From a virus, in IMG/VR virus record IMGVR_UViG_3300032313_001465, positions 84,582-148,581 of that record: a stretch of DNA of 64,000 nt. One strand, given 5' to 3'. Made by a program: the position numbers and the translations under genes. A model generated the notes under the pieces. That model ran no database searches, was not told where the DNA came from, and was given only the letters and a program-made list of their open reading frames with translations. This document shows, piece after piece, positions 7,753 through 63,831 of this stretch (its first letter is position 1; every line of letters starts with the position of its first letter).

Positions 7753-8193
7753 ATGTGGTTATATAAAGAAAAAGAGGTTACATCTATATCAGATATGCCG
7801 GACAACACTTTTGGATTCATATATCAAATAGTTCACTTAGAAACCGGTCAATTTTACATTGGACGTAAAAATCTCCAACTAAAAAAGACTAAAAAGATAG
7901 GAAAAAAAGCCCAAGCATTGCAAGAAGGAAAAGGACGTAAAAAAACTAAAGAAGTAAAATACGAAGAAAGTGACTGGATAACATATTGGTCATCTTCTAA
8001 AATAATACATAAAATGGTAGAGGAACAAGGCCCACAAGTATTTAGAAGAGAAATATTAGAATACGCATATCATCCTAAACAATTAAGTTTCTTAGAAGCT
8101 GAATATCAATTTAAAGCAGATGTGTTACGCAACCCAAAAGCACTTAATGAAAATATACAAGCTAGATATTTTAGAAAAGATTTGGAGAACTAA
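7753..8193 (+). CDS. GIY-YIG-like endonuclease, 146 aa
   Basis: Residues 22-39 contain FIYQI, ten residues, then YIGRK, the spacing of a GIY-YIG core with the first Gly replaced by Phe (F22-I23-Y24, Y35-I36-G37). A downstream helix with LEAEYQFK near residue 117 could supply the catalytic Glu. A Lys-rich stretch (residues 43-70) could bind DNA. Unlike the longer GIY-YIG genes elsewhere in the window it has no NUMOD-type DNA-binding tail. It sits directly before the primase gene, so a resident phage nuclease is as likely as a homing enzyme. Confidence 0.6.
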   Translation: MWLYKEKEVTSISDMPDNTFGFIYQIVHLETGQFYIGRKNLQLKKTKKIGKKAQALQEGKGRKKTKEVKYEESDWITYWSSSKIIHKMVEEQGPQVFRREILEYAYHPKQLSFLEAEYQFKADVLRNPKALNENIQARYFRKDLEN

Positions 8194-9976: not shown

Positions 9977-10735
9977 ATGATTAAATTACTAAGTCTTTTA
10001 AAAGAAATAAAAGGTAAACCTAAAGCTATCTTTTTATCGGGTCCTGCAGGATCTGGGAAAACATTTATTTCTAAAAAATTAATCTCTTTAGACAAATTTC
10101 AAGTAATTAATATAGATGATACTTATGAGGAACTATTAAAATCTTCGGGTATGGGGATGAATCAAAAGAATTTTAGTCCTGAAGAGTTATCTCAAGCTAC
10201 TAAATTAATGGGTCGTGCTCAAGCAGTAACTAAAGAAAAATATGCTAAAGCACTTGAAGGATTAAACAATGTTATTATAGATGGTACAGGTGCTGCTTCA
10301 AAACCACTAATAAAGAAAAAATCAGAATTAGAAGCACTAGGATATGATACATTCATGTTAATAATTTGGACATCCCCTATAACTTCTTTATCTAGAAATG
10401 CAGAACGTGAACGTTCATTAATGCCAAGTATTGTGTTACGTACTTGGAGAGACATTAATAAAAATATAGATTTATATAAACAAGCATTTGGAGATAATAT
10501 AGCTATAATCAATAATGATCCTGAAGGTTTAGAAACCAAATTTGATGTTGAAGATATTAAGAAAAAATATTTTACAAAACAAATGGGAAAACCAAAAACA
10601 CCTGCAGAGCAAGAAAAATCTAAAAAAGAAACAGAACAGTTGAATAAAGATATAGAACAATTTATTAAAGAAAAACCACAATTCAACACCTTATCAGACG
10701 CTCAATCCAAAATAAATAAATTCATAAACAGCTAA
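9977..10735 (+). CDS. P-loop kinase (zeta-toxin/polynucleotide-kinase-like) with class B leader
   Basis: A Walker A motif SGPAGSGKT lies at residues 21-29, followed by NIDDTYEELL and a later basic RNAERERS segment that may form the lid. This is the fold of zeta-toxin and polynucleotide kinases; the phosphoryl acceptor cannot be told. The start is set at 9977, not 9971, because MIKLLSLLKE then matches the class B leader of many genes here, with LKE as a possible prohead-protease site. The last 60 residues form a charged helix. The gene is coupled to the LRR gene by TAATG. Packaging into the head is inferred. Confidence 0.72.
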   Translation: MIKLLSLLKEIKGKPKAIFLSGPAGSGKTFISKKLISLDKFQVINIDDTYEELLKSSGMGMNQKNFSPEELSQATKLMGRAQAVTKEKYAKALEGLNNVIIDGTGAASKPLIKKKSELEALGYDTFMLIIWTSPITSLSRNAERERSLMPSIVLRTWRDINKNIDLYKQAFGDNIAIINNDPEGLETKFDVEDIKKKYFTKQMGKPKTPAEQEKSKKETEQLNKDIEQFIKEKPQFNTLSDAQSKINKFINS

Positions 10736-11271
10736 TGATAAAACTTTTAGACCTCTTACGCGAAGAAAAACTAAATATTCTTAAACCTAGACGTTCCCCG
10801 GAAGAACGCCAATCTAACTTTCTTATTATAACCAATAAGAAAATTGAACAGTACATGAAGGATGGAGGCAAAGGTGATCTTGATTTAGCTAATACTAAAA
10901 TTACCTCACTACCAAATGGTCTAAAGGTTGGCGGTTTTCTGGATTTAAGAAATTCTTCCATCACTACATTACCAAATGGTTTAACGGTTGGAGATTATCT
11001 TTATTTAAGAGATACTAAAATTACATCATTACCCAATGATTTAACGGTTGGGGGTGAACTTGATTTAGCTAATATTAAAATTACTTCATTACCAAATGAT
11101 CTAACGGTTAGGGGTGATCTTAATTTAAGAGATACTAAAATTACATCATTACCAAATGGTCTAACAGTTGGAGGTAATCTTGATTTAGAAAATACTCCAA
11201 TAAGTAAAAAACATTCCGAAGAAGAAATTAAAAAAATGGTTCCGGGAGTAAAAGGCAATATTTATATATAA
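10735..11271 (+). CDS. Leucine-rich-repeat protein with class B leader (5 repeats)
   Basis: The leader MIKLLDLLREEK (possible cleavage after LRE) precedes a basic segment and five 20-residue repeats of the form DLxLxxTKITSLPNGLTVGG (about residues 47-146), then EEEIKKMVPGVKG. The repeats match a short bacterial LRR and would build a small solenoid for protein binding. A paralogue with fewer repeats lies at 21079 and shares the same leader, connector and tail. The target is unknown; a packaged effector that binds a host protein is one possibility. Confidence 0.72.
   Translation: MIKLLDLLREEKLNILKPRRSPEERQSNFLIITNKKIEQYMKDGGKGDLDLANTKITSLPNGLKVGGFLDLRNSSITTLPNGLTVGDYLYLRDTKITSLPNDLTVGGELDLANIKITSLPNDLTVRGDLNLRDTKITSLPNGLTVGGNLDLENTPISKKHSEEEIKKMVPGVKGNIYI
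10872..11171 (+). repeat. Five tandem 60-bp LRR-coding repeats
   Basis: Imperfect 60-base direct repeats, each containing TTACCAAATG or a variant followed by GTTGG, encode the 20-residue LRR units. Sequence similarity between units would allow gain or loss by slippage or recombination. Confidence 0.8.
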
Positions 11272-15408: not shown

Positions 15409-15936
15409 ATGAACAACGAATTTGATTTCAAAGGGTATTTAAAAAATAACCCACTATTAAAAGAAACTAATATTAATATCAATATTAACGAATCTAAACT
15501 TAGAGAAAGAGTAAAAGCCGAAATTTTATCTGCATTAAAAGAAAATGATGCATATGAAGGAATTGGGGAATTTGATAGTAATAAATCCGCTCGTATTAAA
15601 GAATTTATTATAGCACTTAATAGGCTTGTAGATGAATATCACGCAGAATTATACTTAAATGATAGTGTATTTGATGCTATTTCAATGGTGATAAAATATG
15701 CTCAAGAAGAAGCAATGAATATGAATGAAGCTGAAGAAAAAGACCAACCAGAAGAAGAAGAAACTCCAGAAGTAGCAGACGTAGAACCTGAAATTACGGG
15801 TGATGAAAAAATAGTACAAGACGCTTTAACAAAGGCATATGAAACTGCTAGTAAAATGGGTGATAAAAAATTATTAGACCAAATAGGAAACACTATTACA
15901 TTTTTTACCCGTACTCACATTGTAAGTAACAAATAA
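15409..15936 (+). CDS. Acidic internal-type protein, 175 aa
   Basis: The N-terminus FDFKGYLKNNPLLKE carries an LKE site, and residues 27-46 (INESKLRERVKAEILSALKE) resemble a class A leader placed slightly inside the protein. The middle (about residues 103-130) is very acidic (EEKDQPEEEETPEV), and the C-terminus is helical. This acidic composition resembles phage core and scaffold-associated proteins. It is followed by a small basic Hc1-like gene, so the pair may be packaged together; this is inference. Confidence 0.55.
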   Translation: MNNEFDFKGYLKNNPLLKETNINININESKLRERVKAEILSALKENDAYEGIGEFDSNKSARIKEFIIALNRLVDEYHAELYLNDSVFDAISMVIKYAQEEAMNMNEAEEKDQPEEEETPEVADVEPEITGDEKIVQDALTKAYETASKMGDKKLLDQIGNTITFFTRTHIVSNK

Positions 15937-21078: not shown

Positions 21079-21495
21079 ATGATAAAACTTTTAGATCTTT
21101 TACGCGAAGAAAAGCTTGATATCCTTAAACCTAGACGCTCTGAGGAAGAACGCCAAGCTAACTTTCTCATTGCAACCAATAAAAAAATTGAACAATACAT
21201 AAAGGATGGAGGCAAAGGTGATCTTAATCTACAAAATACCCCAATTACTACATTACCAAATGATTTAACAGTTGGAGGTAATCTTTATTTAGATGGTAGT
21301 AAAATTACTACATTACCAAATGGTCTAAAGGTTGGTGGTTATCTTGATTTAGATAATACTAAAATTTCCACATTACCAAATGATCTAAAAGTTGGTAGTG
21401 ATCTTGATTTAAGAAATACTCCAATAAGTGAAAAATATTCCGAAGAAGAAATTAAAAAAATGGTTCCCGGAGTAAAAGGCGATATTTATACATAA
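21079..21495 (+). CDS. Leucine-rich-repeat protein with class B leader (3 repeats)
   Basis: Paralogue of the protein at 10735: the same leader MIKLLDLLREEKL, the same connector (NKKIEQYIKDGGKGDL) and tail (EEEIKKMVPGVKG) flank three full 20-residue LRR units plus partial ends. At 138 residues it is two repeats shorter. High DNA similarity at both ends points to a fairly recent duplication with change in repeat number. Role unknown; likely a binding protein delivered with the head. Confidence 0.72.
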   Translation: MIKLLDLLREEKLDILKPRRSEEERQANFLIATNKKIEQYIKDGGKGDLNLQNTPITTLPNDLTVGGNLYLDGSKITTLPNGLKVGGYLDLDNTKISTLPNDLKVGSDLDLRNTPISEKYSEEEIKKMVPGVKGDIYT

Positions 21496-21505
21496 ACATA
21501 AAATA

Positions 21506-22051
21506 ATGAACAAACTAAACAACTTAAACGAAATTACATCAGCTAACCAAGCTGATATCAAAATCCCAAATACTCTATCCCCAGATGTAACTAAAATGTT
21601 AATCGAAAGAATAGGAGATGAATATACTGCTCATTATTTTTATAGAAATGCATCTAACTGGTGTGATGATAAAGCATATAAAAAAGCAGCCGCATTTTTT
21701 AAAGCCGAAGCTGAAAGCGAATTAACACATGCCGAAAAATTACAAACATATTTAACAGGATGGAATATAATGCCTATCATTCCTCCAGTAAAAATGATCC
21801 CTTCATTCACTAATCTTATTGATATAGTAAACAAAGCATATGAAATGGAATACAATTTATTCTTATCATACAATTCAAATTCATCATCTGTTTTTCCTAC
21901 TGACTTAGCAACTTTTGATTTTTTACAAGAATTAAGACAAATCCAAAACCAGGCAATAGCTGAATATTCTGATTTATTAAATGCAGCTCAATTAGTTAAT
22001 GTGTCTAATAATTTTGAATTATTATACTTCGAAGGAAAATATTTTAAATAA
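21506..22051 (+). CDS. Ferritin-like diiron protein
   Basis: A four-helix ferritin pattern is visible: DEYTAHYFYRNAS supplies E39, ESELTHAEKL supplies E72 and H75, a central helix (AYEMEYNLFLSY, near residue 113) supplies another Glu, and FLQELRQIQNQAIAEYSDLL the last Glu/Gln. Such enzymes oxidise Fe(II) and store iron in a shell. At 181 residues it is near the family length (about 165-175) plus an N-terminal extension MNKLNNLNE with an LNE site. The extension and its leader-gene neighbours suggest capsid packaging, which would be unusual for a ferritin. Confidence 0.82.
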   Translation: MNKLNNLNEITSANQADIKIPNTLSPDVTKMLIERIGDEYTAHYFYRNASNWCDDKAYKKAAAFFKAEAESELTHAEKLQTYLTGWNIMPIIPPVKMIPSFTNLIDIVNKAYEMEYNLFLSYNSNSSSVFPTDLATFDFLQELRQIQNQAIAEYSDLLNAAQLVNVSNNFELLYFEGKYFK

Positions 22052-23878: not shown

Positions 23879-24141
23879 TGAAACCATATACTGACGTTTT
23901 AACAACGGAAAATACAATTATTAGGGAGTTTGGTGATAACATAGACCCCGTTGAATTAAAATGGCATATGGACTCTTCTTCCCGCCACGTTACCATTTTA
24001 GAGGGTAAAGGATGGAAATATCAAGAAGATAATAAATTACCTTTGGAACTTAACGAAGGGGATTGTATATTTATACCAAAACAAACATTTCACCGTATTT
24101 ATAAAGGAACAACCCCATTAAAAATAAAAATTAAACAATGA
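23878..24141 (+). CDS. Small cupin-fold protein, 87 aa
   Basis: A single cupin domain: ELKWHMDSSSRHVTILEGKG contains H30 and H37 near the first metal motif, and LNEGDCIFIPKQTFHRIY carries the second motif with PxxxxH. It has no leader peptide, unlike both neighbours, so it may act in the cytoplasm. Metal and substrate are unknown. It overlaps the next gene by four bases. Confidence 0.68.
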   Translation: MKPYTDVLTTENTIIREFGDNIDPVELKWHMDSSSRHVTILEGKGWKYQEDNKLPLELNEGDCIFIPKQTFHRIYKGTTPLKIKIKQ

Positions 24142-24428
24142 AAAAACCAGAATTAAAGCAAATTATTAAAGAAGAAATACAAAAGATATTAAGTGAACAG
24201 CAAAAACGTATGCAAAAGCTTGCAGGTATTAACGAAGATAACACATTTAGTGACAATTACACAGTTAGTAATGAACAATATAAATTGATGGATAGTTATG
24301 TAAATCAACGTGCACTCCGTGATTTTCTAAATGCCGCTGAAAACATGATGGAAGATTTTCATGAAGCAGGATTTCCGGCAAGAGATGCATTTTATTGGTT
24401 TTATACTAAGCTAACTGCAAATATTTAG
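24138..24428 (+). CDS. Small protein with a composite class A plus class C leader, 96 aa
   Basis: MKKPELKQIIKEEIQKILSE is a class A leader and is followed directly by QQKRMQKLAGINE, the class C sequence, so both types occur in one protein. Sites LSE and INE could be cut in turn. The last 60 residues are helical (LRDFLNAAENMMEDFHEAGF). This gene links the two leader classes and supports a shared function. Body function unknown. Confidence 0.6.
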   Translation: MKKPELKQIIKEEIQKILSEQQKRMQKLAGINEDNTFSDNYTVSNEQYKLMDSYVNQRALRDFLNAAENMMEDFHEAGFPARDAFYWFYTKLTANI

Positions 24429-24463: not shown

Positions 24464-24745
24464 ATGGCAAAATTAAACAAACAATTCCGACGTATGCAAA
24501 AGCTTGCAGGAATTCTTAACGAAAACGAGGAAATAGATAATTTTATTGATGTATTAACAGATATGGCTATTAAAGCTAACATCATTAAAGACAAAGATAT
24601 AAATAAAGACGAAGTAATAGATGCATTATATGATACATGGGAAGATATGGGATTTGATGATTATGAAGAAACAGGACAGGGGATTAGTACATCAGATTAT
24701 AATAGATCTTTAGAAATATTTACCAATTATATTAAAGATAAATAA
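24464..24745 (+). CDS. Small acidic protein with class C leader, 93 aa
   Basis: MAKLNKQFRRMQKLAGILNE is a class C leader with LNE at its end; FQKLAGII at the scaffold C-terminus is the closest match. The body is acidic and helical (DVLTDMAIKANIIKDKDINK). No catalytic residues are evident. It is the last gene before a GC-rich structured region. Confidence 0.58.
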   Translation: MAKLNKQFRRMQKLAGILNENEEIDNFIDVLTDMAIKANIIKDKDINKDEVIDALYDTWEDMGFDDYEETGQGISTSDYNRSLEIFTNYIKDK

Positions 24746-32198: not shown

Positions 32199-33047
32199 AT
32201 GAAACATAATAGGACAAAAAATACAGGTATACTATTTGAATTATTAACAAGACAGATTACTTCAGATATTCTATCAGGTAAAGATTCACCTGCATCAAAA
32301 ATAATCAAATCTCATTTTGTTAATACTGAATTAGGGAAAGAATACAAGTTATATGAGTCTATTTTTAAAAATAACTTTGTTAGCGAAGCTAAAGCTAATA
32401 TGGTTATAAACACGGTATTAGAATCTTCTAAAAAGTTAAATCGTACAACTTTAAGAAAACAAAAATACAATTTAATTAAGGAAATAAAAGACCACTATAA
32501 CTTAGACGAATTTTTTAAAACTAAAGTTTCAAACTACAAAGAATTAGCATCTATATATGTTTTATTTGAAGTACATAGTGATCCAACATATTCAAATCCA
32601 CAAATTACTATAAATAATAAAACTACTCTTTTAGAATATTTAACAAAACCCAAAAGGGAAAAAGAACACACCCAAACCATTATTGAGGAGTTTCAAACAT
32701 ACGACAAAGATTTACGTATTTTAACTTACAAGATTTTACTTGATAAATTTAATACAAAACATGCTCATTTAAATGAGAACCAAAAATTAGTACTCAAAGA
32801 ATTTATCAACTCAATAGATTCAGCTCCAAAATTGATGAGATTTTATAATGATAAGATAAACGAAATCAAATCTGAAATAAAAACTCAAATCAACAAAACA
32901 GAAGATGCTGTTGTTAAAATTAAATTAAAGGAAGTAAGTAAACTACTAACTGAAGTTGATAAGAATCAAAAAGTTAAAACAAATAATTTAGTTGACTTAC
33001 TTCAATATTTTGAACTTTTAGAAGAATTAAAACATACTAATGGATAA
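32199..33047 (+). CDS. Head-module protein of unknown function, 282 aa
   Basis: The ATG at 32199 is preferred over the TTG at 32196. The protein is mostly helical: an N-terminal block (GILFELLTRQITSDILSG), a Lys-rich middle and a coiled C-terminal half (INEIKSEIKTQINKTEDAVV). Located between portal and protease, it sits where T4-type phages keep prohead core and head-assembly proteins. It overlaps the next gene by 8 bases. An assembly role is inferred from place. Confidence 0.55.
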   Translation: MKHNRTKNTGILFELLTRQITSDILSGKDSPASKIIKSHFVNTELGKEYKLYESIFKNNFVSEAKANMVINTVLESSKKLNRTTLRKQKYNLIKEIKDHYNLDEFFKTKVSNYKELASIYVLFEVHSDPTYSNPQITINNKTTLLEYLTKPKREKEHTQTIIEEFQTYDKDLRILTYKILLDKFNTKHAHLNENQKLVLKEFINSIDSAPKLMRFYNDKINEIKSEIKTQINKTEDAVVKIKLKEVSKLLTEVDKNQKVKTNNLVDLLQYFELLEELKHTNG

Positions 33048-33453
33048 TTTAAAAGGGAAAATTAAAAAGATATGTCAAGAATATCTTAAAAAACTAAAAG
33101 AAGAATCTACAACAGGTGGTGGAACAGCTAGTAGTGCCGGAATGACTACAGGTACTGGAGAACAATATGCTACACCATTTGCCTTTAATCCAAATAAAAA
33201 AGCTAAAGGTACAGCCAGTAATTACTACTATAAGTTAGGATATAAATTGGCACCTAACCAAGTAACTGAAATAGATAAATCTACATATGGAACCGGAAAT
33301 TTAGGACCGGGTCCAAAAGCAACTGAACGTGGAGTAGAAGATAATTATTATGTAAAGGCGTTTGGTTACAAAGTAGTTGATCGTAAAAAACAAGCAGACG
33401 CTTCTAAAGCTGTAGATTATAAAGATTTATGGGGAAAAACATATAAATATTAA
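33040..33453 (+). CDS. Small head protein with MCP-like segment after a cleavage site
   Basis: A leader-like basic helix (GKIKKICQEYLKKLKEE) ends in LKE at residues 19-21. The next residues contain TGGGT at 25-29 and GEQY at 40-43. The major capsid protein shows TGGGT (64-68) and GEQW (79-82) at the same spacing after its own probable cleavage site. The remainder is basic with NYYYKLGYKL. It may be a processed head protein that mimics or binds the capsid N-arm. Function unproven. Confidence 0.55.
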   Translation: MDNLKGKIKKICQEYLKKLKEESTTGGGTASSAGMTTGTGEQYATPFAFNPNKKAKGTASNYYYKLGYKLAPNQVTEIDKSTYGTGNLGPGPKATERGVEDNYYVKAFGYKVVDRKKQADASKAVDYKDLWGKTYKY

Positions 33454-33993: not shown

Positions 33994-35205
33994 ATGAAAA
34001 CATTACAAACACAATATAATCTTATTAAAGAAGGAAAAGGAAGTAAACATGTATTTTTAAAGGAAGCAAAAAGCTTATATCCTGACATGATTACTAATTT
34101 TTCAACTTTTGAACAAACTGAAAAAATTCTTAAAAATAGAGGAGTAATTAACGAAAATTTTGTTGGATTACAACCTATTAACGATTGGGAACCATCTCCA
34201 AAACAAGACTATGAAATAGCATTTAAAAAATTCTTATCTGAAGTAGAAGAAGAAAAAGTTAAAGCTGATACTAAAAAAGTGTCTAAATATGTAGAAGATA
34301 CTGATGCTCATAGTTTTGATAATAAAGATCGTAAAAATATTGATAATTTAAGTGGTCAAGAAGTACTTAATGGGTTTTATACCGAATTAAAAGCGCCTAA
34401 AAACGCAGATAAAACGAAAGACGAATTAATGGATATCGTTACTAAAAATCTATCAAAAGATCCGTTATACTACATTAAAAACGGCCAATTTGGAACTGAA
34501 GGAGTGGGATATACTGAAGACGCTCCAGGTTTAGGTAAGCCTAAAGAAGCAAAAGGTAAATATAAATCAAGTGGATATGGCGATTTAGATAATAAACAAA
34601 CAGCTCCAAAATCAAACGTTAAGGATTCAGGAAAAAGTGAATACAAAACTGGTATGCCTAAGAAAGTAAAAGAAATGGATATGAAAGCTCAATCTTCTAA
34701 AGGTGTACAAAAAATGGCTACTCCTGGTAAACCAAAAACTATAAAACTAAATGAAATAGGAATGTTTCATGATCCTATGGGATATAATAAAGGAGCAAAA
34801 TCTCAAAAGGAAGTAGCTCGTGATATATTAATGAATGCTGGATTGTCTGATGAAGAAATAAAAAAGTTCATTAGTGATAATATGTTTAAAAAAGGAAGAT
34901 TAGATGATTTAGCTAAAGAATATATTAAATCCCTTAAAGGACTAAATGAAAATCAAGAATCAAATACAGATGTATTAAAAGATTTAATATCAAGACATGA
35001 TTGGTACTTTGAAATGAGTGATGATAATAGAAAATATAAAGATGGTCAAGCATCTGAAAAGAAAATTATGGATTTAGTAAATAGAATGGGAGATGAAGGC
35101 AAAAAAATCTATAATTCAATGGCACCAAAAGATAGACAATTAAAAGAATCCGTAGTTGATAGAATAATAGAATCTATTCTTGAAAGACTTAAGAAAATTA
35201 AATAA
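33994..35205 (+). CDS. Prohead core-like protein with multiple cleavage sites, 403 aa
   Basis: The leader MKTLQTQYNLIKEGKG has IKE, and HVFLKEAK adds LKE. MKTLQ and the charged composition resemble T4 internal proteins, which begin MKTYQ. Residues 90-240 are very hydrophilic and Lys-rich, probably disordered (KPKEAKGKYKSSGYGD). The C-terminal 120 residues are helical with further LNE and LKE sites. It immediately precedes the protease. A core component or internal protein that is chopped during maturation is the best reading. Confidence 0.6.
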   Translation: MKTLQTQYNLIKEGKGSKHVFLKEAKSLYPDMITNFSTFEQTEKILKNRGVINENFVGLQPINDWEPSPKQDYEIAFKKFLSEVEEEKVKADTKKVSKYVEDTDAHSFDNKDRKNIDNLSGQEVLNGFYTELKAPKNADKTKDELMDIVTKNLSKDPLYYIKNGQFGTEGVGYTEDAPGLGKPKEAKGKYKSSGYGDLDNKQTAPKSNVKDSGKSEYKTGMPKKVKEMDMKAQSSKGVQKMATPGKPKTIKLNEIGMFHDPMGYNKGAKSQKEVARDILMNAGLSDEEIKKFISDNMFKKGRLDDLAKEYIKSLKGLNENQESNTDVLKDLISRHDWYFEMSDDNRKYKDGQASEKKIMDLVNRMGDEGKKIYNSMAPKDRQLKESVVDRIIESILERLKKIK

Positions 35206-35206
35206 A

Positions 35207-35827
35207 ATGAGTAAACAACTTCTAATAGAAACTAGACCATTCCAAGTTAATCCAATGCAACTTGTTGAAGGAACCAAAGGATCTTCAGGAAATCCATTAG
35301 TAGAAGGTATTTTAGCTACAGTAGAAGTAAAAAATGGAAATGGAAGATACTACAAGAGAGAGTTATGGGAAAGGGAATTAGAAACATACATGCAAAGTAT
35401 TAAAGAAAATCGTGCAACTGGAGAATTAGATCACCCCAGCACTGAAGTTATTAACTTAAAAAATGTATCTCATGCTATCAAAGATATTTGGTGGGATGGG
35501 GACAACATAATGGGTAAAATCGAAATTCTACCTACCCCATCAGGTAATATCCTAAAAGCACTTATAGAAAGCAATATCTCAGTAGGAGTATCTTCAAGAG
35601 GAATGGGTACTTTAAAACAAGAAGGCGATTTAATGGAAGTACAAGATGATTTTACATTAACATGTTGGGATTTTGTATCTACTCCTTCTAATCCAGGTAG
35701 CTGGATGCATCCAATAAATGGAATGATGAACGAAGGTTTACAATCAATTAAAACAAATAAGTATTCTAAAGTAAATTCTATTCTTTTTGAAATATTATGC
35801 GCTCACGGCACTTGCCCAATAATTTAA
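35207..35827 (+). CDS. Prohead core protease (T4 gp21-like, peptidase S77 family)
   Basis: The start at 35207 (MSKQLLIE) is chosen over an in-frame upstream codon that would overlap the previous gene by 26 bases. Catalytic motifs are GELDHPS (H76) and GVSSRGMG (S129 or S130, nucleophile), as in T4 gp21, with length 206 against 212. Its own N-terminus has LIE and LVE sites that fit self-processing. It should cut scaffold, capsid and leader peptides after (I/L)xE. A strong terminator follows. Confidence 0.88.
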   Translation: MSKQLLIETRPFQVNPMQLVEGTKGSSGNPLVEGILATVEVKNGNGRYYKRELWERELETYMQSIKENRATGELDHPSTEVINLKNVSHAIKDIWWDGDNIMGKIEILPTPSGNILKALIESNISVGVSSRGMGTLKQEGDLMEVQDDFTLTCWDFVSTPSNPGSWMHPINGMMNEGLQSIKTNKYSKVNSILFEILCAHGTCPII

Positions 35828-36028: not shown

Positions 36029-37096
36029 ATGTCAACAAACAGAGATTTATTAAAAGAAGCGATCGCTGACGCTAAAGCAGTAAAAGATACAGCAATTGCA
36101 AACGCAAAAATGGCTCTTGAAGAAGCATTTACTCCACATTTAAAATCTATGTTCTCCGCTAAAATCAACGAGATGGAAGAGGAAGATATGGATGAAGATA
36201 TGGATTACAATGACGAAAACATAGAGCAAAACGAAGCCAAAAAAAGAGGTGGAAAAAATGAAAAGGTTGTTAAAGAATTCTATTTAGAAGAAGACGAAAT
36301 CAATCTAGAAGAACTTATGTCTGAATTAGAAAAAGATGAAATGGAAGAAGTAATTAATGATCCTAGAGGTCCTAGAGCTCACGGTAATATAGCTTCTGGA
36401 GGAATGTCAGATGATGCTTTAATGGAAGCCGAAGAAGAAACTGAGGAAGAAATGAGTATTGAAGACATGTCTGAAGAAGATTTAAAAGATTTCATTGAAA
36501 GTGTAATTAAAGACATGGTTGAAGCTGGAGAAATTGAAGCTGGTTCTGAAGAAGAAGAAGAAGAAGAAGAAGAAGGTGAAAGTATTGATGAGTTCTTAAA
36601 CGAAATGGAAGGTGATGACCTTAAAGAATATGGTCAAGAACAACCTATATCAGTTGAAGACGCTTTATCAATTGTATGTAAATCATATCCAAACAATGCA
36701 TTATGTAAAGGAATGAAAGAAGGCAAAGGTGCAAAAGAAAAATCAAACAAAGAATTAGAAGAAGCATACAGAGTTATTAGATCAATGAAAAAAGACATTA
36801 ACGAAGTTAACTTACTAAACGCAAAATTACTTTACACCAATAAAATCTTCAGAGGTAAGAGCTTAACTGAATCTCAAAAGATTAATGTATTAGGTGCTTT
36901 TGACAGAGCAACAACCGCTAAAGAAGCTAAACTGGTATATGAATCATTGTTGAGTAATTTAAAAACACCAACAAGAAACATTCAAGAAAATTTAGGTAGA
37001 GCTTCCAAGTCAGTAACTGTTCCTCAAACAAAACAACCTATTATTGAATCAAATGATATGGTAGCAAGGTTCCAAAAATTAGCAGGTATTATTTAA
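36029..37096 (+). CDS. Prohead scaffold/core protein (T4 gp22-like)
   Basis: It is highly acidic, helical and just upstream of the capsid gene, as expected for the scaffold. Residues 1-50 contain DLLKEAIADAKAVKD, a heptad pattern; Glu runs lie near residues 150-190 (EEEEEEEEGESIDEF). The extreme C-terminus VARFQKLAGII matches the class C cargo leader (FRRMQKLAGII). This suggests that the cargo leader mimics a scaffold assembly element. Many LKE, INE and LME-type sites fit destruction by the protease. T4 gp22 is 269 residues; this one is 355. Confidence 0.82.
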   Translation: MSTNRDLLKEAIADAKAVKDTAIANAKMALEEAFTPHLKSMFSAKINEMEEEDMDEDMDYNDENIEQNEAKKRGGKNEKVVKEFYLEEDEINLEELMSELEKDEMEEVINDPRGPRAHGNIASGGMSDDALMEAEEETEEEMSIEDMSEEDLKDFIESVIKDMVEAGEIEAGSEEEEEEEEEGESIDEFLNEMEGDDLKEYGQEQPISVEDALSIVCKSYPNNALCKGMKEGKGAKEKSNKELEEAYRVIRSMKKDINEVNLLNAKLLYTNKIFRGKSLTESQKINVLGAFDRATTAKEAKLVYESLLSNLKTPTRNIQENLGRASKSVTVPQTKQPIIESNDMVARFQKLAGII

Positions 37097-37136: not shown

Positions 37137-38780
37137 ATGGCAAACATTCAAAACTTACTCGAATCAGCTAACCCGTATAAATCACTACAAGGTGATGCGG
37201 CTAGATTAGCAAACAAATGGAGTAGAACAGGATTGTTAGAAGGTATCAAAAATGAAACCGAGAAAAACAATATGTCTATGATCCTTGAAAACCAAGCAAA
37301 ACAATTGGTAATTGAAGCCTCTCAAACAGGAGGTGGTACTTCTTCAACAGCTACTTTTACAGCAGGTGTTGGTGAACAATGGGCAGGTGTAGCTCTTCCG
37401 TTAGTTCGTAAGATCTTCGGTCAAATTGCATCAAAAGAATTCGTTAGTGTTCAACCAATGAACTTACCTTCAGGTCTAGTGTTTTTCTTAGATTTCCAAT
37501 ATGGTACATCTAAAAATCCATTTACAGCAGGTAAATCAATGTATGGTGATACTGGTTCTAACTTTGGTAATACAAACACTGGTGGTCTATATGGTGCTGG
37601 TAGATTTGGTTACTCAGTTAACAACACTTCATCTATTCAGGCAGCAACAACTGGTTCAGCTACTTGGTCTACTTTTGATCTAGATAGTGATTATTCAGCT
37701 TCAGCAGCCGCTGGTTCTTGGAAAACATTAACTGTAACTTTATCATCTACAACTGATTTCTTAGCAGCTAGATCATTTACTCTTACTTCTGCTTCTAACA
37801 TCGCAGTAACAGATAACTTACCTGCATTTACTACTTTTAATACAGCAAATAACACTGTAACTTTCGTTATTACTGGTTCAAAAATAACTGATGCTTTTGC
37901 TCCAGCTGGTTCATTACCAAACGTTACTTGTTCATATTCATTACAACCAACTGATAAATACAGAGGTGATTTTGAAGATGCTAACACTGCTTTGAACGCA
38001 AACAACAGTTCAATTACAATTCCTCAAATCAACGTTCAAATGAGATCTGAAGCAATTGTTGCTAAAACAAGAAAATTAAAAGCAGCATGGACTCCGGAAT
38101 TCGCTCAAGATTTAAATGCCTACCATGCATTAGATGCTGAAGCTGAATTAACTAGCATTATGAGTGAATACATCAGTTTAGAAATTGACTTAGAAATTTT
38201 GGATATGTTGATCGAAACAGCAGCCGCAGGTACTGAATATTGGTCAGCAGTAAATAACCAAAGTTTAAGTGTAAGTGGTACTACTGTAACTAACAACCCA
38301 TCTTTAGGTTTCTTTAACACACAAGGACAATGGTTCCAAACTTTAGGAACTAAAATCCAAAAATTATCAAACGCAATTCACCAAAGAACATTAAGAGGTG
38401 GTGCAAACTTCATCGTTTGTTCTCCAACAGTAGCAACTATCTTGGAATCAATCCCAGGTTTTGCAAGTACTTCTGATGGTGAAGCTTCAAAAATGACTTA
38501 TGCATTTGGTGTACAAAAAATGGGTCAATTGAATGGTAGATATCAAGTATACAAAAATCCATACATGACAGAAAACACTATATTGATGGGTTACAGAGGT
38601 CAACAATTCTTGGAAACAGGTGCAGTTTTTGCTCCATATATTCCATTGATCATGACTCCGTTAGTGTACGATCCAAACACATTTACTCCTAACAAAGGTC
38701 TATTAACTAGATATGCAAAGAAAATGGTAAGACCTGAGTTTTATGCAAAGATCTTCGTTTCAGGTTTAAATACTCTATAG
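37137..38780 (+). CDS. Major capsid protein (T4 gp23-like, HK97 fold)
   Basis: MANIQNLLESANPYKSL starts an N-terminal delta domain of about 60 residues; the probable cleavage is after VIE60, just before ASQTGGGT, similar to T4 gp23 cut after residue 65. Recognisable core parts include RKIFGQIASKEFVSVQPMN, the E-loop region, and the C-terminal RYAKKMVRPEFYAKI. Length 547 is close to T4 gp23 (521). An A-rich leader and codon choice unlike neighbours (more GGT, GCT) fit very high expression. A terminator follows. Confidence 0.93.
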   Translation: MANIQNLLESANPYKSLQGDAARLANKWSRTGLLEGIKNETEKNNMSMILENQAKQLVIEASQTGGGTSSTATFTAGVGEQWAGVALPLVRKIFGQIASKEFVSVQPMNLPSGLVFFLDFQYGTSKNPFTAGKSMYGDTGSNFGNTNTGGLYGAGRFGYSVNNTSSIQAATTGSATWSTFDLDSDYSASAAAGSWKTLTVTLSSTTDFLAARSFTLTSASNIAVTDNLPAFTTFNTANNTVTFVITGSKITDAFAPAGSLPNVTCSYSLQPTDKYRGDFEDANTALNANNSSITIPQINVQMRSEAIVAKTRKLKAAWTPEFAQDLNAYHALDAEAELTSIMSEYISLEIDLEILDMLIETAAAGTEYWSAVNNQSLSVSGTTVTNNPSLGFFNTQGQWFQTLGTKIQKLSNAIHQRTLRGGANFIVCSPTVATILESIPGFASTSDGEASKMTYAFGVQKMGQLNGRYQVYKNPYMTENTILMGYRGQQFLETGAVFAPYIPLIMTPLVYDPNTFTPNKGLLTRYAKKMVRPEFYAKIFVSGLNTL

Positions 38781-52780: not shown

Positions 52781-53054
52781 ACTTCATTTATTTTCTCAAA
52801 TTCATGAAATAGTATTTCATGGAAATGGTGGCTATGATTGGGATACTATTTATAATATGCCTATTTGGTTACGAAAGTTTACATTTAATAAAATTAAAGA
52901 ATACTACGATAAACAAAATAAAAACCACCAAAACGAAGATTCATGGACTAATAAATCAGGAGCAGCTGCTCAAAACGCATCAAAAAATGTAAAAATACCT
53001 GATTTTATCAGTAAATCCCCACAAACATACCAAACTAAGGCATCGCGAAAGTGA
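52761..53054 (+). CDS. Tail assembly chaperone, frameshift extension (T-type part)
   Basis: This frame is open from the slippery run but has no ATG until 52857, so independent translation would lose 32 conserved-looking residues. The extension starts GLTQEYRLHLFSQIHEIVFH and includes YDWDTIYNMPIWLRKFTFNK, a pattern (Trp, then MPIxxRK and a basic helix) common in chaperone C-terminal domains. Fused product about 343 residues (+1) or 344 (-2). It would bind the tape measure protein as the tube polymerises. Its stop lies in a terminator-like hairpin. Confidence 0.68.
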   Translation, partial: GLTQEYRLHLFSQIHEIVFHGNGGYDWDTIYNMPIWLRKFTFNKIKEYYDKQNKNHQNEDSWTNKSGAAAQNASKNVKIPDFISKSPQTYQTKASRK

Positions 53055-62527: not shown

Positions 62528-62926
62528 ATGAAAAAACAAATACTAAGCGAACAATTTCGACGTATGCAAAAATTAGCAGGAATTATTAATGAAGGTCAAG
62601 AAAAATATCCAAAAGGTTTTACTCCATATACACCCACCAAAGAAGACGATGAAAATTATGATGGAAAAGTATTAGCTGCCTATACAGCACCTATGGATGG
62701 GTGGGATGAAAATAATTCGGATACTGTAGTAGTTATGAAAGATGAGGAGGGCTTTTGGGTAGATGGATATCTTAGCTTTGGTGATTTTGAAGACGAGGAA
62801 GGTACAGGACCATTCAAAACCCAAAAAGAAGCCGAAGATAAGGCTTATGAAATAATGGAAGACATTGTAGATAATTGGGAAGATGAGGATTATGATGATG
62901 AAGATGATGACGACGATGATTATTAA
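62528..62926 (+). CDS. Acidic protein with class C leader, 132 aa
   Basis: MKKQILSEQFRRMQKLAGII then NE is the purest class C leader and is repeated almost base for base at 63493. The middle contains VVVMKDEEGFWVDGYLSFGD, a small beta domain, and the C-terminus is a run of Asp and Glu. Sites LSE and INE could be cut. The acidic tail resembles DNA-mimic or core proteins. Function unknown. Confidence 0.6.
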   Translation: MKKQILSEQFRRMQKLAGIINEGQEKYPKGFTPYTPTKEDDENYDGKVLAAYTAPMDGWDENNSDTVVVMKDEEGFWVDGYLSFGDFEDEEGTGPFKTQKEAEDKAYEIMEDIVDNWEDEDYDDEDDDDDDY

Positions 62927-63492: not shown

Positions 63493-63831
63493 ATGAAAAA
63501 ACAAATACTAAGCGAACAATTTCGACGTATGCAAAAATTAGCAGGAATTATTAATGAAAGCGAATTTAAAGTGGGGGATACAATAAAAATACCATTTACT
63601 TTATCTACAGGTGATGAAAGTGAAGGAGAAATTTTAGCAATTTCTACATATTTATCTAACAAAAAAGCAATTGATAAGGCTATTAGAGACAGTGGATGGG
63701 AAGGTGGAGAAAAAGAAGAATTAACTTGGTACAAAATAAAAACTCCAGATGGGATCGAATGGATAGATAGTGAGGAATTATCGGTAATGGGTGATGAAGA
63801 TGATGAAGATGATGACGACGATGATTATTAA
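63493..63831 (+). CDS. Acidic protein with class C leader, 112 aa
   Basis: The first 22 residues are the same as those of the protein at 62528 up to MKKQILSEQFRRMQKLAGII, and the last residues again are an Asp run ending in Tyr. The middle differs (FKVGDTIKIPFTLSTGDESE, beta-rich). Ends conserved and centre replaced: a swapped cassette. Function unknown. Confidence 0.6.
   Translation: MKKQILSEQFRRMQKLAGIINESEFKVGDTIKIPFTLSTGDESEGEILAISTYLSNKKAIDKAIRDSGWEGGEKEELTWYKIKTPDGIEWIDSEELSVMGDEDDEDDDDDDY

Follow-up and report, generated by a model that had tools for sequence, protein, structure and literature searches.

How T4-like phages choose the cargo that they enclose in the head and inject has been an open question since targeting sequences were described in 1996. 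In T4, internal proteins carry short N-terminal leaders, which gp21 removes after L/I-X-E and in which residues 4 and 7 matter for targeting (PMC9026906). A 2023 review calls the localisation mechanism of these sequences "mysterious" and, as reported there, the T4 capsid-targeting sequence (CTS) is absent from other core proteins (PMC9958956). At the locus described here, the last residues of a putative scaffold recur near the N-terminus of several small proteins of the same phage. The initial annotation of this DNA proposed that cargo joins the core by mimicking a scaffold contact point. We analysed whether the likeness is real, how far it extends among phages and what it may mean.

The Putative Scaffold and Its Terminal Peptide

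The window, i.e., the whole stretch of 64,000 nucleotides that was analysed, is the final 64 kb of a 148,581-base record and belongs to a T4-like phage. Its head genes keep the T4 order: terminase (28675), portal (30267), protease (35180), scaffold (36029-37096) and major capsid protein (37137). Capsid-targeting leaders of the T4 type operate in genomes that encode, in this order, a prohead protease of the gp21 kind, a scaffold and a capsid protein of the gp23 kind, as the present one does. The features of this block are as follows.

35180 to 35827, plus strand: gp21-like prohead maturation protease (phrog_207, head maturation protease, E 1.8e-58)
36029 to 37096, plus strand: scaffold (gp22 position), 355 aa, between the protease (phrog_207) and the capsid gene (phrog_138)
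37040 to 37048, plus strand: predicted prohead-protease site I-I-E / S, scaffold residues 338-340 ([LIVM]xE spacing; T4 L/I-X-E rule)
37049 to 37093, plus strand: scaffold tail SNDMVARFQKLAGII, with the motif R347-I354 at 37067-37090
37137 to 38780, plus strand: gp23-like major capsid protein (phrog_138, major head protein, E 6.8e-73)

The protease is presumed to be the enzyme that removes the leaders and the scaffold tail. The major capsid protein presumably bears an N-terminal propeptide, and it is a candidate partner of the scaffold tail.

The open reading frame at 36029-37096 has no PHROG match, and we identify it as the scaffold from its gene position, from comparison with relatives whose scaffolds are annotated, and from a build that is helical and acidic. 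It comprises a long N-terminal helix, an acidic middle, a conserved helix (residues 224-276), a disordered linker and a C-terminal tail helix. Its translation closes with KQPIIESNDMVARFQKLAGII, that is, IIE, then the predicted cut, then the tail. In a single-chain AF2 model (mean pLDDT 68), the tail forms a helix at residues 343-351 (pLDDT about 76), and the disordered linker that precedes it (324-340) holds the predicted cleavage site. The initial annotation gave this end as VARFQKLAGII at 37064-37096: the peptide is right and the coordinates are not, that span encoding ARFQKLAGII plus the stop codon, with the V one codon upstream.

The Same Peptide in Leaders of Small Proteins

As had been noted, RMQKLAGI is present in the translated leaders of the cargo genes at 24138, 24464, 62528 and 63493. 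We call these leaders class C.

24138 to 24236, plus strand: hybrid leader of a 96-aa protein, class A (MKKPELKQIIKEEIQKILSE) followed by class C (QQKRMQKLAGINE); full N-terminal leader MKKPELKQIIKEEIQKILSEQQKRMQKLAGINE
24464 to 24523, plus strand: class C leader MAKLNKQFRRMQKLAGILNE of a 93-aa cargo protein
62528 to 62593, plus strand: class C leader MKKQILSEQFRRMQKLAGIINE of a 132-aa cargo protein with an acidic C-terminus
63493 to 63558, plus strand: class C leader, likewise MKKQILSEQFRRMQKLAGIINE, of a 112-aa cargo protein with an acidic C-terminus

A six-frame search of the window found QKLAG in the scaffold and in these four leaders only, and a degenerate DNA pattern has exactly five matches in the entire 148,581-base record, the same scaffold and four leaders. 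None of the four cargo proteins has a Pfam match over the curated cut-off.

The Likeness Weighed Against Chance

Short amphipathic helices rich in K and E could resemble one another by chance or by composition. We therefore scored blindly, genome by genome, each C-terminus (12 aa) against each N-terminus (40 aa). In the window genome, the pairs of the scaffold with 62528 and 63493 rank 1 and 2 of 42,230; the single-genome evidence is weak, as the top pair is barely ahead of the next (37 vs 35), which is what the chance explanation has in its favour. The scaffold-leader pair also ranks first in Flavobacterium phage immuto (NC_055915; 44,732 pairs) and in the genomes G028 and G062. In G035, another tagged C-terminus comes first and the scaffold fourth; in G027, the pair lies outside the top eight, a result that counts against mimicry.

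The decisive evidence is a census of the relaxed motif across 19 related phage genomes or long contigs, with expectations taken from shuffles. It returned 27 occurrences in the first 30 residues of proteins where 0.45 were expected (these leaders are mutually related and so represent fewer independent events), 22 in the last 14 residues where 0.15 were expected, and 3 elsewhere in proteins where 2.7 were expected. Relatedness does not explain the restriction of the motif to termini. With the recurrence of the pattern in a distant phage (see below), these counts leave chance a negligible place: the similarity between tail and leader is real and far above chance.

The Tail in the Scaffold Family

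We assembled a non-redundant set of 85 scaffolds, located mostly via their capsid gene. All 85 end in R-[MFWI]-x-x-[LI]-A, in which R and A are invariant and the second position is M in 44, F in 21, W in 19 and I in one. A protease-type [LIVM]xE lies upstream in 77, with 5-6 residues between its E and the R of the motif. Nearly all relatives found through the capsid protein have an ORF ending in the motif just upstream, and this way of retrieving them introduces no bias toward the tail. Among 59 aligned scaffolds (19-92% identity to that of the window), the only invariant columns are E32, R347, L351 and A352; three of the four belong to the tail, which is thus conserved like a contact. A conserved C-terminal peptide behind a protease site is also the mark by which a contact peptide of the herpesvirus kind would be recognised. 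From the alignments, the tail is ancestral and family-wide.

The motif reaches Mel-JY01, RM378, Atu_ph07, Phosso, PA5oct and two huge uncultured phages. Several near-complete or long genomes (Mel-JY01, RM378, G030, G031 and G032) have the tail and no class C leader. This counts against mimicry, and it implies that class C loading is optional and the leader dispensable; it fits an order of events in which the tail came first and the leader was a later copy. T4, its relatives and cyanophages (L160, which is T4, and L359-L364) share a different scaffold tail, roughly M-[AS]-x-Y-x-x-A, and a pattern search found no class C-type leaders in phages with that tail (T4, HTVC008M and S-CAM9). The SCTP-2 tail, MLINAGIKKN, was too degenerate to be counted. 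A tblastn search with the scaffold tail as query gave no matches, which we attribute to the length of the query.

Leaders as Exchangeable Tags

Leaders were collected by pattern (81 distinct; 56 source contigs retrieved with FRRMQKLAG), so that their motif letters are partly selected, while the flanking sites are free of this selection. In 72 of the 81, [LIVMF]xE follows the motif within 6 residues, and in 66 a protease-type site precedes it. Class C leaders thus resemble the T4 type in two respects: they are short N-terminal leaders on unrelated small proteins (the 27 census occurrences, on diverse proteins) and, as far as sequence can tell, they end at an L/I-X-E prohead-protease site. A search with the leader peptide over 50,697 phage records, in which E values as high as 10 were allowed, matched immuto only.

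In comparisons of orthologous cargo, class C leaders behave as exchangeable tags. The G038 protein at 53000, with the class C leader MAQFINEAKRWQQLAGIITE, and the immuto protein at 102294-102869, with the class A leader MKKSELVKLIKEELNIQ, are 66% identical over 175 aa in their mature parts, and this identity starts just past the leaders. Leaders are likewise exchanged between L236 8246 and L085 3936 (60% over 82) and between G035 30187 and immuto 1803-2318 (57% over 68). Finally, a domain ending in QIxNTITYFTR is preceded by class C, class D or class A leaders, depending on the phage, and its G068 member combines a class A leader with a C-terminal class C copy. The window has its own member of this family:

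15409 to 15936, plus strand: NTITYFTR-family cargo (..QIGNTITFFTRTHI) under another leader (MNNEFDFKGYLKNNPLLKE); elsewhere, relatives have the class C tag N- or C-terminally

Copies of the class C motif also stand at the C-termini of other, non-scaffold proteins, and one 914-residue protein (G028:C1:112288-115032, minus strand) has the motif at both termini. Four class C-tagged proteins (G027 97842, G035 31059, G038 53000 and G042 40028) have long hydrophobic stretches, a feature that would suit proteins injected to act on membranes.

If the leader copies the tail, the two could be expected to covary, as the initial annotation suggested. Within the clade this is nearly absent, which counts against mimicry: 74 of the 81 leaders keep M at the F/M/W position, at which scaffolds vary, and there is a single W/W pair. 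Between distant clades it holds, through the variant of Atu_ph07. The opposite case, class C leaders in a phage whose scaffold lacks the tail, was not found: in about 20 contigs that offered both a class C leader and a scaffold, every scaffold has the tail.

The Pattern in Distant Phages

In the Agrobacterium phage Atu_ph07, the scaffold ends in EINDLKRLAGIKK (DLKRLAGIKK). When this tail was compared with 637 other N-termini from the first 400 kb of the genome, the best leader was MNIDKLKKLAGIKK (KLKKLAGIKK, score 45), on a protein annotated as a nudix hydrolase, and the second was MDIERLKILAGLE (RLKILAGLE, score 29), against a background of 25. Leader and scaffold both have L where the Bacteroidota-type clade has M/F/W. 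This distant jumbo phage repeats the tail-leader pattern with its own clade variant. Cleavage is less clear there, the leaders having no obvious [LI]xE directly past the motif.

In Phosso, a 976-residue protein ends in ARLRKLAGI; a further candidate of that phage (355634-357334, ending in LQKLAGITPERRVRK) was set aside as it may be a chance match. A PA5oct protein annotated as structural (virion-detected, ESI-MS/MS) contains IDRIKKLAGI about 40 residues from its C-terminus. Its presence in virions speaks for mimicry and, like the leader exchange on orthologues, is an indirect sign that the motif may direct proteins into the head; its non-terminal position counts against mimicry.

A Model for Cargo Loading and Its Alternatives

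The mimicry proposed by the initial annotation draws support from a tail present in all 85 scaffolds and conserved like a contact, from the confinement of the peptide to termini, from leader exchange on orthologues and from the repeat in Atu_ph07. We consider it likely that class C leaders target proteins to the capsid by copying the C-terminal contact peptide of the scaffold, and that the prohead protease then takes them off. The docking, its partner, the cut and the ejection are steps that we infer, as follows. In the prohead, the last 14-17 residues of the scaffold would form a short helix on a flexible linker and dock on a partner, which is most likely the major capsid protein, at its inner face or its N-terminal propeptide. 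Small late proteins bearing the same helix at their N-terminus, or occasionally at their C-terminus, would dock at the same kind of site and become enclosed. The gp21-like protease would then make two kinds of cut. One, at the [LIV]xE after the leader motif, would set the cargo loose inside the head, ready to be ejected; the other, at the [LIV]xE before the scaffold tail, would detach the scaffold so that it can be cleared. Among the parts of this model, a targeting role for the class C leader is highly probable and a docking site common to leader and tail quite probable; the capsid protein as the partner is an evenly balanced call, the main alternative being the scaffold itself.

That alternative, which is a sub-case of mimicry, is somewhat unlikely in our estimate. 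It takes the tail for a contact between scaffolds within the core, so that leaders would bind scaffold and not capsid protein. It is the literal form of the original idea, and in T4 gp22 co-purifies with the internal proteins, which are described as having an affinity for the core (PMC9026906). On the other hand, herpesvirus scaffold-to-capsid contacts are laid out in this way, with a C-terminal helix that follows a flexible linker open to cleavage (PMC12474303), and the capsid-protein reading is drawn from this match in conserved terminal helix, linker and protease site. What the initial annotation calls joining the core might just as well be attachment to the capsid protein, a partner that the scaffold tail may also have. 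The motif might instead be a docking peptide for the prohead protease, recruiting gp21 to nearby [LI]xE sites while targeting is achieved otherwise. It nearly always lies a few residues from a predicted cleavage site; however, [LIV]xE-type sites occur without it in the capsid propeptide and in the remaining leader classes of this phage, some copies end their protein with no site after them, and on orthologues it substitutes for whole leaders instead of being added to them, all of which makes protease docking quite improbable. That the copies of the motif descend from a common source is plausible and agrees with the data, and the leaders might be relics of gene fusion, descended from scaffold tails and since deprived of any related function. 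A relic would decay, whereas R, L, A and G are kept in nearly all 81 leaders, on otherwise unrelated proteins (partly through search selection), and the motif is terminal only and swapped with other leader types; we regard a mere leftover as very improbable.

Comparison with Known Systems

Like the class C leader, the T4 CTS of IPII, IPIII and related internal proteins is a short N-terminal leader that ends at L/I-X-E on diverse small proteins. The T4 sequence (about 10 residues) has no QKLAGI, whereas the class C leader reproduces the C-terminal peptide of the scaffold itself. The tail of T4 gp22, VYAKVASRF, is unlike that of the window, and the T4 leader differs too, which counts against mimicry.

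In herpesviruses, the C-terminus of the pre-scaffold binds the capsid protein and is cut off by the maturation protease, and the protease precursor carries the same tail (PMC12474303). There, the tail is shared through overlapping genes and belongs to one scaffold polypeptide, whereas the class C peptide is N-terminal on many unrelated proteins; also, the herpesvirus tail binds the capsid protein, while for the window tail such binding is a prediction. In P22 designs, cargo is fused to scaffold sequence with its C-terminal coat-binding part, and in encapsulins cargo enters an HK97-fold shell by means of a short peptide at one terminus. The P22 fusions are engineered, whereas the class C leader occurs naturally, is predicted to be cleaved and copies about 8-14 residues, mostly at the N-terminus; the targeting peptides of encapsulins are usually C-terminal and, unlike class C leaders, work without scaffold or protease. 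Engineered cargo enclosure in P22 nanocages is a field already covered by review (PMC9962691).

The cleavable capsid-targeting sequence is known as a kind, and what seems to be new is a natural leader that reproduces the terminal peptide of the scaffold. The literature that we searched, with most subscription journals outside its coverage, held no report of leaders copying a scaffold tail, and a search of it for the peptide gave no matches.

Other Leader Classes

Class C is one of several leader classes in the window:

Class A, MKxSELRxxIKEE..: window 11283, 11612, 27117, 61777, 62147 and 62940
Class B, MIKLxDILxE: window 9971, 10735, 13049, 21079, 22408, 23140 and 23459
Class D, FDFKGYLKNNPLLKE: window 15409

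Besides class C, many small genes of the window bear leaders of at least three more types, all closing in [LIV]xE-like sites; among these genes are those for a kinase-like ATPase and for a nucleotidase that is weakly NT5C-like. The set of proteins that this phage encloses is probably large.

The small protein encoded between portal and protease (window 33040-33453; L112 8454-8675) has an N-terminus that resembles class A leaders; in both genomes, the best N-terminal matches of this product are mostly such leaders. It is possible that class A is a second case of core mimicry, although this is uncertain with K/E helices of low information. Class B leaders were considered as mimics of the scaffold N-terminus and rejected: DLLKEA against DLLREE is mostly cleavage-site consensus, and the pair was unremarkable in blind scoring.

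Some other genes of the window may be mentioned. The paralogues at 10735-11271 and 21079-21495 are closely similar (MIKLLDLLREEKL[ND]ILKPRRS..), and a ferritin-like protein (21506-22051; Pfam Ferritin, E 1.7e-17) lies among the leader-bearing genes. By eye, the genes at 7753, 20290, 38889, 45449, 49085 and 49849 (minus strand), among the structural genes, look like homing endonucleases of GIY-YIG or HNH type.

Implications for Cargo Choice in T4-Like Phages

One could extend the idea to a general rule for T4-like heads, by which the cargo leaders of each lineage copy termini of its own scaffold or core proteins; we hold this to be rather doubtful. Under such a rule, the scaffold tail would be the model for class C in Bacteroidota and jumbo phages, and the N-terminus of the small core protein between portal and protease the one that class A resembles. 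For T4 there is a lead only: its leader has a Y-x-x-F that could echo the Y-x-x-V at the end of gp22, both fitting Y-x-x-[FV].

For the family described here, our comparisons suggest that class C cargo boards the head posing as scaffold and is then cut loose. If leaders copy a scaffold contact, their docking site could be looked for as the site of the scaffold tail. If this is true, the cargo repertoire of a phage would be readable from its genome alone, by comparing its own scaffold tail with its own N- and C-termini, and a short cleavable tag for head loading would be defined. It would also give a handle on the ejected proteins of a large environmental phage family, in which the leader-bearing proteins are mostly unannotated.
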